Positions 7,712 through 15,088 of a DNA stretch of 64,000 nt are shown piece after piece. The DNA lies in NCBI RefSeq assembly GCF_000337175.1, contig NZ_AOIJ01000051.1, positions 210,777 to 274,776 of the forward strand, read 5' to 3'. Both the position numbers and the translations under genes were made by a program. The DNA is from Natrinema gari JCM 14663. GTDB taxonomy: Archaea; Halobacteriota; Halobacteria; Halobacteriales; Natrialbaceae. Positions within the stretch are counted from its first letter, which is position 1; every line of letters starts with the position of its first letter. The notes beneath the pieces were generated by a model that saw nothing but the letters and a program-made list of their open reading frames with translations, did not search any database and was not told the origin of the DNA.

Positions 7712-7763
7712 GGATGGCGTTCGGTATCCCTGATGTTAAAACCTTGCCCAACACGGCACCGGA

Positions 7764-7774
7764 AACTTTATTAC
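7764..7774 (+). promoter_or_regulatory. TATA-like box before the putative structured RNA
   Basis: AAACTTTATTA is AT-rich in an otherwise GC-rich region. About 25 bp downstream, at about 7795-7800, begins a hairpin-rich stretch with no good ORF. Confidence 0.45.
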
Positions 7775-7794
7775 CCACACCTTACAAGGCACGG

Positions 7795-7995
7795 ATACGG
7801 AAGACCAGTCCCTCGGGGCGTGACTGTCGAGGAAACGCCCGCGTGCTGATGACACGCGGACTGGGCTTCTGTGGGCAGAAACCCATGTCGATGAAGACAG
7901 TCGCCGGACTTCAGGATTCCGGCACGGCCACAGATCGTCTGCCAAACAGGGCGGCTGTAGCGCGTGGGCGTTCGATGACGGTTTCACGCGCGTTG
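7795..7995 (+). ncRNA. Putative structured non-coding RNA, family unknown
   Basis: No convincing reading frame occupies this stretch, yet it holds a nested set of perfect or near-perfect helices. An outer 7-bp helix (7822-7828 with 7896-7902) encloses two hairpins: 7839-7845/7853-7859 (CCGCGTG/CACGCGG, loop CTGATGA), and 7862-7871/7876-7885 (ten pairs with one mismatch, loop TGGG). Two more follow: 7903-7908/7918-7923 and 7960-7966/7985-7991 (GCGCGTG/CACGCGC). A TATA-like box sits at the right distance upstream. It does not show the conserved blocks I know for SRP RNA, RNase P RNA or tRNA. The same structure could instead be a leader of the gene at 8033. Confidence 0.45.
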
Positions 7996-8032
7996 CCTGC
8001 TCGAGCCGAGCGGTCGTTTCGGGTGAGCGCGG

Positions 8033-8359
8033 ATGAGCGACGCGGACGTCGATTCCGAGACGGCCGAATCGCTCGCCCGCGCACGGCTCGCCGAGGCGCT
8101 CAGACATCCCGGCGAGTCGACGGGAAGCGACATCGCCCGGCTTGCGGAACTCGCCGACGCCATCACGACCGCGCTGGACCGTGGCGAGAGACCCGAGAAA
8201 CGCACCGTCGAGGAAGCCCGCTTCCGTGCGGACCGGATCGAAACGCGGCTGGACGAGGTGACGGCACTGTTCGGCTGGCACCCGCGGGATGCGGGCGCGA
8301 ACTGGGGGGTCCCTGCCCGACGACCGACGGGCCGAGATCGAGGCCCGCGACTCGGGTGA
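8033..8359 (+). CDS. Small helical protein, unknown function
   Basis: A 108-residue acidic protein from ATG 8033. Residues 5-80 look entirely alpha-helical (SETAESLARARLAEALRH, DIARLAELADAITTALD, VEEARFRADRIETRLDEVTA), and the tail is Gly/Arg-rich. It follows the putative structured RNA by about 40 bp and is convergent with the prepilin peptidase gene. No family recognised. The tail from about residue 90 is less protein-like, so the exact end may not reflect the ancestral gene. Confidence 0.55.
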   Translation: MSDADVDSETAESLARARLAEALRHPGESTGSDIARLAELADAITTALDRGERPEKRTVEEARFRADRIETRLDEVTALFGWHPRDAGANWGVPARRPTGRDRGPRLG

Positions 8360-10563: not shown

Positions 10564-10768
10564 GATTGTGGGTTGCGTGGGTAGTCGTCGGTCGGTGATT
10601 CGGCTGTCGTTGCCTCAAGGCGTTCTCGACAGTCGCCAAGCACCAGCACCGCGGTCAGCCTCGAGAACGCGCCGGTCGCGGACACGTCAGTAACGAAAGT
10701 GAAACGCGATCCCGAAATCGGGATCGCCGGCAATAGCGCACGAAGCGCCGGTATCGGTTCCATCCTGT

Positions 10769-10777
10769 TTTATAACT
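10769..10777 (+). promoter_or_regulatory. TATA-like box of the AT-rich four-gene operon
   Basis: TTTATAACT lies 21-29 bp before the ATG at 10798, so a leaderless transcript is likely. The base composition changes from GC-rich to AT-rich at about this point. It is the only good promoter-like site seen in the operon, whose four genes are joined by 4-bp gaps or overlaps. Confidence 0.6.
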
Positions 10778-10797
10778 CTCTTGGACCACCATGTAGT

Positions 10798-11598
10798 ATG
10801 GAGATCGAGCCGAAGATTCGATTTGCAATTGAACACATCACCTTCGGATACGGTGTTCACTATCTTCTGCAGGTTCTTCTTCTCCAGTTCGCATCACTAT
10901 TTCTATCATTCCAGTTCTCTAAGGATCTTGTATTGGAAGTTGAAAAAAAGAGCCTCTTTATGATAGTATACAGTGGTGCCTCAGTCATATTCGTTCTAAT
11001 ACTACTTCTGTTCGTCAAAAGAATGAGCGAGCGGACTCTTTCACCAAAACTCCACAGAAAATCTAATATTTTGGTCTCGGCAGCAGGGTACTTTCTCGCG
11101 TCTGGTGTGATAGTTGTTTTCGGATATGTTATTCTGATCCATGCTACCTCCCGTGGAACAGGAATTGGGGCGCTTGATTACGTATTCTCAGTCATGCTTA
11201 CAGCACTATTTGCAACTCTACTTGCTGTTGGTTATCACGCTCGCGTAGTTGATGACCAACCTGACCGAGATCGTATCATCAATACGATCTCCAAGTGGGA
11301 GGAATCTTTCTCTTGGGTCGAATACGAAGAAGGTACGGAAGGCCGGAAGTCGACACGTGAAGAGTTTGGATCTTCATTAGAAGAAATATCTGACCTACTA
11401 TCCATGGCAAAGACAAAGGACGGACGCGAATTGAAAGATGAATTTGAATCATGGAGGTCGTCTTTTGAACAGCATAGTCAGCTATCCAAAGAAACAATTA
11501 TCAGGGGACAGCAGAACAAAGGGAATGAACGGTTAGAACAGGAACACAAACAACTAGAGGAAATTCGGGACCAGTTTCAAGTGATAAAAGGGTCATAA
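10798..11598 (+). CDS. Four-pass membrane protein with coiled cytoplasmic tail (first gene of the candidate defence operon)
   Basis: A 266-residue protein, starting at ATG 10798 rather than the in-frame ATG at 10699 because a TATA-like box lies between them. Hydrophobic segments at about residues 17-38, 50-70, 86-108 and 122-143 suggest four membrane passes. Residues 150-266 are polar and largely helical (EEFGSSLEEISDLLSMAKTK, ERLEQEHKQLEEIRDQFQVI), probably coiled coil in the cytoplasm. No recognised domain. Codon use is AT-rich (many AAA, ATT, GAA), unlike neighbours outside the operon. Being a membrane protein at the head of an ATPase operon, it may be the effector or sensor; that is inference. 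Confidence 0.8.
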   Translation: MEIEPKIRFAIEHITFGYGVHYLLQVLLLQFASLFLSFQFSKDLVLEVEKKSLFMIVYSGASVIFVLILLLFVKRMSERTLSPKLHRKSNILVSAAGYFLASGVIVVFGYVILIHATSRGTGIGALDYVFSVMLTALFATLLAVGYHARVVDDQPDRDRIINTISKWEESFSWVEYEEGTEGRKSTREEFGSSLEEISDLLSMAKTKDGRELKDEFESWRSSFEQHSQLSKETIIRGQQNKGNERLEQEHKQLEEIRDQFQVIKGS

Positions 11599-11602
11599 GA
11601 CA

Positions 11603-12109
11603 GTGCAACCGTATAAGAAATTAGAGGACGTGGTTCCTCACGAGGAGAATATACTGATCCTCACTACTAGTGATACCTGTTTCAATTACGATTTTTCGGA
11701 TATTGTTGAAGAGATTCGGGAAGGAATCCGCGGAGACAAATTACTTATTGAAGAATATTACCATTCTCTATCAGATTTGTCTAACCGAGACAAGTTGATT
11801 CAAAACAGTGTTTGGGTCATCCATTGGAATGAATGCCTAAAGGATGACCAGTACCCCCAGTTAGGATTTTATTTGGAGACACGAAGTTACCCTAATGAAG
11901 CAGAAGTTATCATCTGCGTTGACGGTGGTTCTGCCACAGTATCCAAAGTAGAGTCAGAATATCCGCATCTTACTGTTGCATCCAGCAAAGAGCAGTTAGT
12001 AGCATACTCACGGGGTCATTTGAATACCGCGAACCCGATAACAAAAGGCGGCCGCAAGAAGATCAAGCGGTGGAATGAAGAGGTTTGTGAAGACTTGGGG
12101 GTGATCTGA
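11603..12109 (+). CDS. 168-residue protein of the candidate defence operon, unknown function
   Basis: It starts at GTG 11603, only 4 bp after the upstream stop, and its stop overlaps the next ATG (TGATG at 12107). The pattern of short hydrophobic strands and helices (ENILILTTSD, QNSVWVIHWNE, EAEVIICVDGG, HLTVASSKEQLVAYSRG) suggests an alpha/beta sandwich, perhaps Rossmann-like or TIR-like, but no catalytic motif is certain. The C-terminus is basic (KGGRKKIKRWNEEV). Translation coupling on both sides argues that it works with its neighbours. Candidate enzyme-type effector or adaptor. Confidence 0.75.
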   Translation: MQPYKKLEDVVPHEENILILTTSDTCFNYDFSDIVEEIREGIRGDKLLIEEYYHSLSDLSNRDKLIQNSVWVIHWNECLKDDQYPQLGFYLETRSYPNEAEVIICVDGGSATVSKVESEYPHLTVASSKEQLVAYSRGHLNTANPITKGGRKKIKRWNEEVCEDLGVI

Positions 12110-13044
12110 TGCCTAGTGAATGGAAGGTACTGAAACGGGCAGTTGAGTCGCTTGACCTTACTAGTGATGAATTTGAAGATTATGTAATGGTCATCACAGA
12201 TGTATACGGTGATGCCATTGCTAGCTCCGGCGATTTTGAAGACTTTAGCGAGGAATACTATGATTTCCTCAATAGAAAAGTGTTCCCGCACGAGAGGGTG
12301 ATTTCAACTCTTAGAGAAGCAGGAGTATCCGAAGAAGACTTGATTGTCTTTCAGGATGGCGAGGTCCCTTGCGATGATCTTGTGAAGACATGGAACAAGA
12401 TCGAGTTTAATATTGACGAGCTTGTGGACATGGCGATGATGCTCAAATTGGTGAAAGATTATTCCTTTTATTCTGAGAACGATATGATCGAATCTCGATA
12501 CCGTTTCCAGAAATTGCTGTATTTCATCAATAAATACCTCAAGAAAGAAGAATCCTATACCATCAGTAACTCTGTGGGTGGAGAACTCGGAATGCTGGAC
12601 AGAACAGGTTATCGTTACCGGTTCACGAGACGAGATTCAGGACCGTATTCCAACGTGGCCTATGAGGATAAGAATCGTCTGTACGCATGGAGTTTGATAG
12701 ATGAACTAGTCGTTTCGGAGGATGGTACTGGCGAGGTCGCTGAACGAAACCGACGATACGGAATAAAATTAACCCCACGAGGAGAGGCGATGGTAAAACG
12801 GGTCTACGACCGGATCGAAGAATCAGATAGTGTCATAATCTACTCATGGAACGACACCCAGAACAAGGTCGTTAGAGAGATCGCAGGGATGTCACATGAC
12901 GAACTAACTAATATGGTTAAAGGAGATAAAAGCCTACTGCGAGCAGAGAGCGGAGATGAGTTACTGGTTGGTCCAGAGAAAAAGTTCCAAACTAGTGAGA
13001 TCAATTTCGTGGAAGAACTAACGGAGGAGATCGCTCATGGCTAG
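12109..13044 (+). CDS. YwgA-like protein of the candidate defence operon
   Basis: A 311-residue protein. Residues about 125-230 resemble the YwgA/Panacea-like helical DNA- or partner-binding fold: RFQKLLYFI at 132-140, YRYRFTRRDSGPYS at 168-181, and a winged-helix-like end YGIKLTPRGE at 217-226. The N-terminal 120 residues are helical and acidic with no known match. Its start overlaps the previous stop by one base and its end overlaps the next gene by 8 bp, so it is tightly coupled to the ATPase gene. In known three-component ABC ATPase systems a middle component joins ATPase and effector; this gene has the right position for that, which is inference. Confidence 0.8.
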   Translation: MPSEWKVLKRAVESLDLTSDEFEDYVMVITDVYGDAIASSGDFEDFSEEYYDFLNRKVFPHERVISTLREAGVSEEDLIVFQDGEVPCDDLVKTWNKIEFNIDELVDMAMMLKLVKDYSFYSENDMIESRYRFQKLLYFINKYLKKEESYTISNSVGGELGMLDRTGYRYRFTRRDSGPYSNVAYEDKNRLYAWSLIDELVVSEDGTGEVAERNRRYGIKLTPRGEAMVKRVYDRIEESDSVIIYSWNDTQNKVVREIAGMSHDELTNMVKGDKSLLRAESGDELLVGPEKKFQTSEINFVEELTEEIAHG

Positions 13045-15088
13045 TCGCGAAGAAGTGATTAGTAGCGTTGTTTCTGATCTCGAACAGAAAAAAGGCATTG
13101 AGCCAGAAGACATTGAAGAAGGCGAAAATATCCTACGAGAGAATTATGATACTCTTGATTTCCCTGTAGGTCGAGTCACTCTACAGCGTATTTGGATAGA
13201 TAAATTCAGAAATCTAAATGATGAAGATGTCCGATTTGAGAATCAGAATACAGTTCTTTATGGAGAAAATGATAGTGGGAAAACAGCTGTCTTGGAAGCT
13301 ATTCGGTTTAACTTATTTGGACGGCAAGAGAGGCAGAGAATAACACTCCCCGACCCCATTCAACATGACAAAAACTCACTCACTACTGTCGGAAATTGGA
13401 CGGTAGACAGTCAACACCATCTTATTCGACGATCTATGGAAAAAGAGGGGTCGGCATATGTTGGTCATCAACGTCCAAAATTAGTTTTCGACCCTAATTC
13501 CGAAGATGCCAATCCACATCAAGCCCGAAATACCCAACAGGATATCTCAGAAGCATTTGGTCTCTGGCCGGTTGAATCCCGTGAGTTAGGCCGCTATAAT
13601 ATATTCTCACTATTCTGTTTGATGGCTCCTGACTTTAAGACCTTCCTGAGGTGGCAGGACAAGGACGACTTCCTAGACCTCCTGTTTGGGATGGACATGG
13701 CGAGTGCGATCAATCAAAGCAAGACTCTGAGGCAGAATAAGTACGCAATATCTGACGAGGAGAAAACAGCACCAGAAGAGTTGGCAGTTGCAAAAAGCCG
13801 CATAGACGAAATTGAAGAGAGACTATCAAAGCTGTATGGATATAAAGAGCGAGTAAACGAGATTATTTCAGCCAAGAAAGACGAGCTGCGTTCAGTCAAT
13901 GACGTAATTCAGAGGGATGATGAGTATCAGAGACTCAAAGAACTCGAATCAAAGCGGCTTCGGCTGGAACGCCAAGTGAGTAAACTGGAATCTGAAAAAC
14001 GAGAAACGCGTGGCGATCTCCGGCAAAAACGAGTGCGCATAGAGCGGTTGGAAGAGATGCAGATGGGCGAGGACCTTCATTCCACCGCTCAGGAACTACA
14101 GAAGTACATGAATGTACCCGATCGGTGTCCTGTCTGTACCAACGATGTAGATGATACCCAGCGCCGTCGGCTACTGCAAGAGGGTAGCTGCCCCCTTTGT
14201 GCAAAACCTGTTCCAACGGAACGAATCGAAATTGGATCGGAAAGAGATGTTGAAGAATCAATTGAGGAACAGGAGAAAATGGCAGAGGAGTTGGTCGAGC
14301 TGCGAGACGAAGAGAGGAAATTAGAGGGAGAATTTAAGAGACTGGTTAGGGAACTTCAGGAGAAGGAGTCTGAGCTAGAGCGAGTAGAAAGCCAGATAGA
14401 GGACAACAGTGCGGAAAGACTTCTCGAATATCAGGATGAATTAGAGAAGACGGTTTCTGACCTAGAGGGAACGGCCACCGCGATCCAAGTCGAAGTAAAC
14501 GCTAACAAGAGGGAGTTAGAGAGTTTGGAAGAGGAGATGGATAAACTTCAAGGTGCATATGAATCCCGCAAATTAAAATCTCGAAAGATACAGGCTCTAT
14601 CGTCTTTTGAGAAGTCTGTGAATTATCATATAGAGCAAGAACGGGCCAGTCTAAAGAATGAACTTGAATCAGAAATGAACACTCTACTAAAGTATTTCAA
14701 AGAGGGATCTTTCGCAGATGCGGACGAGGTGACGTTCGATAGCCAAGGCGGGTATAATTTTACTGTTGAGATGGATGTGCAAGATGACATTCCGTCAAGT
14801 CGTCATAATCAGAATTCGAACGAAGGCAAAATCCTTGCCCTGCTGTTCCATACTACAGTACTAAAACTGCTTTCAAAGCAGAGCAATACCATCCCAATTC
14901 GGATGTTCTTAATTGATTCCCCTTATTCTGATGCACCTGATACTGGAAATGCTCCCGACATCACCCGATTTTTATCAGCACTTCCCGACATCCTTCCTGA
15001 CTACCAAATCATTCTTACAGTAGCCGACACCTCAATGGTTGAGAGGCAGGACTTTAGCGGCGATTATAAAATACGGAATTTCTCATAA
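13037..15088 (+). CDS. Rad50/SMC-like coiled-coil ATPase of the candidate defence operon
   Basis: A 683-residue protein. Walker A is GENDSGKT at 76-83. Long coiled coils run at about 240-360 and 400-550. Between them is an apex with CPVC (364-367) and CPLC (385-388). An ABC signature-like segment is NSNEGKILALLF near 593-604, and Walker B is MFLIDSP near 623-629. Order and spacing match Rad50/SbcC/RecN-type ATPases but the protein is shorter than Rad50 (about 850-900). The apex has two CxxC pairs instead of the single zinc-hook CxxC. No Mre11 partner is encoded nearby. AT-rich codon use. A DNA-end or foreign-DNA sensing ATPase is the likely role; OLD nucleases are excluded because no Toprim domain is seen. 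Confidence 0.88.
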   Translation: MASREEVISSVVSDLEQKKGIEPEDIEEGENILRENYDTLDFPVGRVTLQRIWIDKFRNLNDEDVRFENQNTVLYGENDSGKTAVLEAIRFNLFGRQERQRITLPDPIQHDKNSLTTVGNWTVDSQHHLIRRSMEKEGSAYVGHQRPKLVFDPNSEDANPHQARNTQQDISEAFGLWPVESRELGRYNIFSLFCLMAPDFKTFLRWQDKDDFLDLLFGMDMASAINQSKTLRQNKYAISDEEKTAPEELAVAKSRIDEIEERLSKLYGYKERVNEIISAKKDELRSVNDVIQRDDEYQRLKELESKRLRLERQVSKLESEKRETRGDLRQKRVRIERLEEMQMGEDLHSTAQELQKYMNVPDRCPVCTNDVDDTQRRRLLQEGSCPLCAKPVPTERIEIGSERDVEESIEEQEKMAEELVELRDEERKLEGEFKRLVRELQEKESELERVESQIEDNSAERLLEYQDELEKTVSDLEGTATAIQVEVNANKRELESLEEEMDKLQGAYESRKLKSRKIQALSSFEKSVNYHIEQERASLKNELESEMNTLLKYFKEGSFADADEVTFDSQGGYNFTVEMDVQDDIPSSRHNQNSNEGKILALLFHTTVLKLLSKQSNTIPIRMFLIDSPYSDAPDTGNAPDITRFLSALPDILPDYQIILTVADTSMVERQDFSGDYKIRNFS

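Follow-up and report, generated by a model that had tools for sequence, protein, structure and literature searches.

A hairpin-rich locus in the 64,000-nucleotide stretch of Natrinema gari DNA analyzed here (the window) carries a member of a conserved RNA family that lies in the 5' leader of a protein-coding gene. Within this leader, one strand (B) has coevolved with two partners: strand A, with which it forms the outer helix P1, and strand C, with which it would form an alternative helix, P4, abutting the start codon. Comparison of sequences makes the reality of the family, its leader position, and the coevolution of its competing helices well supported, and we consider it probable that the element is a new cis-acting translational switch. 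Coordinates are given in Table 1.

Table 1. Features of the leader locus in the window
Feature	Position	Strand	Evidence
Divergent winged-helix regulator gene, 83 aa	7460..7711	-	TrmB-type HTH, Pfam E 1.6e-7
BRE/TATA-like promoter (GGAAAC-TTTATTA)	7761..7773	+	Fits proposed haloarchaeal BRE CGAAA / TATA TTWT (PMC4983044)
Core leader RNA, three-way junction	7797..7871	+	Covariance-model match (R1, 87.9 bits, E 5e-18); covariation
Strand A, 5' side of outer helix P1	7798..7811	+	Pairs with 7858-7871
Hairpin P2 (7816-7821/7835-7840), loop GACTGTCGAGGAA	7816..7840	+	Pairing in 96.1% of cells; GRAA retained in loop
Hairpin P3 (7841-7845/7853-7857)	7841..7857	+	99.8% of cells paired; double changes at 5/5 pairs
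Strand B, 3' side of P1; 3' part 7863-7871 alternatively pairs with C	7858..7871	+	A:B z -23.3, B:C z -11.2
Strand C (CAGAAACCC); with 7863-7871, putative alternative helix P4, foot directly before ATG	7876..7884	+	Coevolution with B
Small ORF behind leader (MSMKTVAGLQDSGT...), frameshifted in window	7885..8036	+	L002 and L003 sequences; ORF positions
In-ORF nucleotide motif CTTCAGGATTCCG, +25..+37	7909..7921	+	Fixed spacing from ATG in unrelated ORFs
Second operon gene, 108 aa	8033..8359	+	ORF list; same start region after first ORF in L002, L003, L007, L022

A covarying RNA family of haloarchaea

Can the fold of a single sequence establish such an element? Folded singly, the window sequence was mildly better than random (z of -2.27 against dinucleotide shuffles), which is insufficient by itself to settle whether the element is real; comparison with relatives settles the matter. 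The aligned relatives have the same order of parts in common (A, P2, P3, B, a short linker with C, and ATG), and in the window P1 contains one A.G mismatch. The original prediction, which was made from the window sequence alone, had described an outer 7-bp helix over two hairpins; the nesting was borne out by P1 enclosing P2 and P3, but P1 is longer than 7 bp. Two further stems had been listed, and both the TTCTG/CAGAA hairpin (loop TGGG) and the CCGGA/TCCGG stem exist, although the former competes with lower P1 and is not an extra helix. The later stems of that list sit within or beside the conserved ORF. With regard to elements thought to be conserved, the loop CTGATGA reads CTGAGAA in the nearest relative and CTGGAA or TTGGAG elsewhere, and the only purine patch to be retained is the GRAA of the P2 loop.

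Of the 125 genomes from the same taxonomic family, 17 contained dispersed relatives by DNA search, and several of these 17 had more than one copy. We then used a covariance model (R1) that covered the core only (P1-P2-P3) and left out strand C and the ATG. At E <= 1e-3, this model matched 54 of the 125 family genomes and 164 of 392 genomes of the class, representing 61 of 86 genera; in a phylum-wide sample, all of the matches listed fell within the same order. Because E-values are rough and the weakest near-threshold matches may include chance ones, our analyses were restricted to 109 nonredundant members above about 45 bits. In the alignment of 108 members, the share of helix cells that paired was 96.1%, compared to 30 to 48% when the partners were slid. 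Compensatory double changes were found at 21 of 23 pairs, and double-changed cells numbered 472 versus 120 in shuffles. P1 alone was paired in 94.6% of cells, with double changes at all 12 of its pairs. Kinship can inflate covariation counts, and swap and slide controls were used for this reason. G.U cells outnumbered A.C cells in the helices (190 versus 42), which indicates an RNA read from this strand.

Searches of known RNAs did not account for the element. Rfam 15 at the gathering threshold gave no match in the window (best E of 0.91 in a lax search), and in the loci of 19 relatives it detected solely 5S rRNA and tRNA genes elsewhere in L065; a tRNA/tmRNA search found none. Together with the strong covariation, the lack of an Rfam match upholds the original suggestion of an uncatalogued, conserved haloarchaeal RNA.

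Competing helices at the start codon

Is the element a freestanding RNA or part of an mRNA? The original prediction had favored a promoter-driven RNA without an ORF. The TATA-like box was confirmed (TTTATTA at 7767-7773, preceded by GGAAAC); however, the element runs up to an ATG (7885-7887) that opens an ORF also conserved in the relatives (MSMKT.AGLQDSG...), and essentially every relative likewise forms the 5' leader of a gene that encodes a protein. Both promoter position and ATG spacing are features outside model R1. A TATA-like word was present 21 to 34 nt before P1 in 94 of 109 members, compared to 37 of 432 control windows, and haloarchaeal promoter spacing places the predicted transcript start at strand A. 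An ATG followed P1 in 106 of the 109 members at a median distance of 15 nt (5th to 95th percentile, 11 to 21). Shine-Dalgarno (SD)-like words were found upstream of 37 of 106 starts versus 64 of 530 in controls, the majority of starts thus having no SD. A conserved upstream ORF was discounted, an ATG being present inside the core in just 40 of 106 members. Inverted repeats near the TATA box, which differ from locus to locus, could be operators.

Strand C, immediately ahead of the ATG, is a repeat of the 5' portion of A and is complementary to B. We compared the predicted B:C duplex energy of each member with that obtained after swapping C among members: own partners gave -10.1 kcal/mol and swapped partners -7.8 kcal/mol (z of -11.2, n = 106). 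The controls in this swap test (ORF start, upstream region, and P2 against C) gave z values of -2.1, +1.7, and +1.6, and A:B gave -23.3. Covariation between single columns of B and C was weak because the length of C is variable. The foot of P4 lies 0 nt from the AUG in 84 of 106 relatives. Lower P1 and P4 draw on the same nucleotides of B and are therefore mutually exclusive; upper P1, P2, and P3 are compatible with both states. P1 is predicted to be more stable than P4 by a median of 4.9 kcal/mol. The default state is thus probably the one with P1 formed and the AUG free, P4 would need a trigger, and without one the modeled energies suggest that P4 may be rarely populated.

Related leaders of different sequence follow the same plan. 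A joint MAFFT alignment of types 1 and 2 misaligned P1, and the types were therefore modeled separately. Type 2 (model R3), found in 27 of 242 class genomes, has the same P1/P2/P3 arrangement with helix covariation, keeps the placement of C against the AUG (B:C z of -8.2), and keeps the in-ORF motif. An apparent third subtype, missed by both models, was recognized by eye in four winged-helix loci (L250, L251, L258, and L261) as CACGAACC ... GGTTCGTG ... CGAACC-ATG before divergent ORFs, and its in-ORF motif appears to be shifted by one base.

Readings of the leader

How might such a leader act? In the switch that we propose, an mRNA would be transcribed from about 7795-7798, and its leader would act in cis on translation. 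With P1 formed, C would be single stranded and the AUG accessible; with P1 opened or never formed, P4 would stand directly against the AUG and block the ribosome. The balance could be set by a candidate signal, a protein or small molecule bound at the P2/P3 junction, and the divergent winged-helix protein may add a second, transcriptional layer by controlling the shared promoter region. That translation is switched at all, in which direction, and by what trigger are the parts that we infer. In Haloferax, structures that mask the AUG repress translation (PMC8241225), which we count in favor of the switch.

The leader might instead be constitutive, with P1, P2, and P3 serving as a stability or ribosome-recruitment element or as the site of one host protein, and with P4 merely spacing or presenting the AUG. 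The energetic preference for P1 and the diversity of the downstream genes are consistent with this explanation, and the excess of SD-like words makes recruitment possible. We nevertheless regard it as rather unlikely, since B and C coevolve although B is already partnered by A, and since the three-strand design recurs in type 2 and apparently in the third subtype. Far less probable is a small RNA that acts in trans from a promoter of its own, as first conceived, and for which the downstream ORF would be incidental: the promoter-like sequence and compact fold would suit it, but the narrow ATG spacing in 106 of 109 members (about 15 nt from the helix), the fixed in-ORF motif, and the coevolution with a strand touching the AUG argue against it. 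We give equally little credence to a DNA-level element, be it an operator, a recombination site, or an att site, in which inverted repeats mimic RNA and the in-ORF motif is a crossover that swaps downstream genes; the same leader and N-terminal DNA precede different ORFs, one downstream operon stands behind different leader types (L001/L002 versus L003), and inverted repeats lie near the TATA box, yet the G.U excess is an RNA signature and P1-P3 form a junction with conserved loop nucleotides.

The switch that we favor resembles several known systems. As in riboswitches, a conserved structured RNA occupies the 5' UTR of the controlled gene, and coevolution on overlapping B nucleotides points to two helices that exclude each other, one of which extends to the initiation region. 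We liken the leader, which would work like a translational riboswitch, to that class and do not assign it to the class. Translational riboswitches, among them the fluoride (crcB) riboswitch of archaea, likewise are structured 5' leaders in cis that set a closing helix against a start-codon helix; the present family differs in having no Rfam match, in preceding genes without a common pathway, and in a P4 that abuts the AUG instead of covering an SD. Synthetic theophylline riboswitches in Haloferax volcanii demonstrate that AUG masking controls expression in haloarchaea, but those were designed and mask the SD as well (PMC8241225). Like ribosomal-protein/L7Ae k-turn leaders, ours could be read by a protein, and a subset in Natrialbaceae has a tandem G.A-like P2 loop; however, no ribosomal-protein genes lie downstream, and the P2 loop is not conserved family-wide. 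A broader proposal, which we put forward tentatively, is that the family is a widespread natural class of riboswitch or protein-sensing RNA of haloarchaea and their mobile elements, an AUG-abutting platform that would read the in-ORF element jointly with a dedicated divergent transcription factor.

Other classes were considered and rejected. A family-wide L7Ae k-turn (3-nt bulge, tandem G.A) does not fit a P2 loop that varies from about 6 to 18 nt with no conserved k-turn. A C/D box guide RNA (RUGAUGA and CUGA boxes) was discarded because relatives do not retain the TGATGA found in the P3 loop, and a hammerhead drawn from CTGATGA...GAAAC has the wrong order and lacks conservation. A transcription attenuator or intrinsic terminator was discounted, as there is no U-run and the AUG comes directly after P4.

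Most haloarchaeal mRNAs have no leader (72% are leaderless in Haloferax), and a genome-wide start-site study found structured-leader translational control not to be typical there (PMC4983044). Experimental proof existed for only a single natural archaeal riboswitch as of 2021 (PMC8241225). A leader family that is present in 61 of the 86 genera sampled, in several copies per genome, that covaries strongly, and that is built like a switch would run counter to the view that such control is not typical. It offers a testable handle on archaeal initiation without an SD sequence and on the control of plasmid, viral, and accessory genes.

Downstream genes, divergent regulator, and carriers

The original prediction probably missed the small ORF because of a 1-nt deletion in the window: one base is missing near 7933/7934 (relative L002, CACAGCATCG; window, CACAGATCG, aligned as CACAG-ATCG). 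In relatives, this ORF ends in a TGA that overlaps the next start. The deletion (within 7925-7940), which makes the small ORF read through the next gene, reflects either gene decay or an error in sequencing. The in-ORF motif has the pattern C[AT][AT]RARNNYNNCG at +25..+37 (A29, 92%; C36, 92%; G37, 94%). Its wobble positions are constrained despite differing proteins, with C at position 3 of codon 12 in 92% of cases versus 37% in the background, and its position is fixed relative to the AUG and not relative to the leader. Covariation between the motif and the leader loops (a pseudoknot idea) gave no convincing pair, and a hairpin around the motif was found in the MSMKT group only. The motif may be a binding site read as RNA or DNA.

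The proteins encoded downstream of the leaders vary widely (SWIM zinc fingers, one weak match to a zinc ribbon, and unknowns) and have no common pathway, hence no hint of a ligand. The 108-aa second-gene product had no Pfam or PHROG match in family searches, and the SWIM protein had no match in phages. Leader type and downstream operon are shuffled among L001/L002 versus L003, L018, L010, L011, and L022, with the first ~15 codons alike, which suggests recombination at the ORF start.

In 76 of 108 relatives, the leader has a divergent winged-helix gene at a distance of ~90 nt on its upstream side, compared to 0 of 108 in the downstream control; 13 further members have another small family (phrog_26393) in the divergent position, again with none in the downstream control. 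In the converse test, a protein search yielded 30 winged-helix genes, 16 of which had a type 1 leader where the divergent arrangement predicts one. Haloarchaeal viruses and plasmids contain divergent repressor/early-gene modules that similarly pair a small winged-helix regulator with accessory genes, but in our case the accessory gene is preceded by a structured leader that is conserved.

Named carriers of the leader include Haloarcula marismortui pNG500 and plasmids of Halobacterium and Halococcus, with Halobacterium salinarum BOL4-2 and Halococcus dombrowskii among the strains that have a copy; type 2 is carried by H. salinarum pNRC200 and five IMG/VR viral contigs of 29 to 41 kb. BLAST of the window leader against phages gave no match, nor did R1 in phiCh1, NVIV1, and ChaoS9, which have related winged-helix genes. 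The first IMG/VR pattern matches (L094 and L095) failed the model and were set aside. On some contigs, three or four leaders stand before successive genes (L074-L076); these arrays, in L074 (G365:C108), L075 (G280:C24), and L076 (G301:C34), include SWIM zinc-finger genes and divergent winged-helix genes, and a VapC-like gene lies near L074. Beside the leader locus in the window, a four-gene island spans 10699-15088. Three of its genes had no confident match, and the last encodes an AAA/SMC-type ATPase that matches LmuB (Lamassu) models (E of 6.6e-36); by sequence, the island is a possible divergent Lamassu-like defense system.
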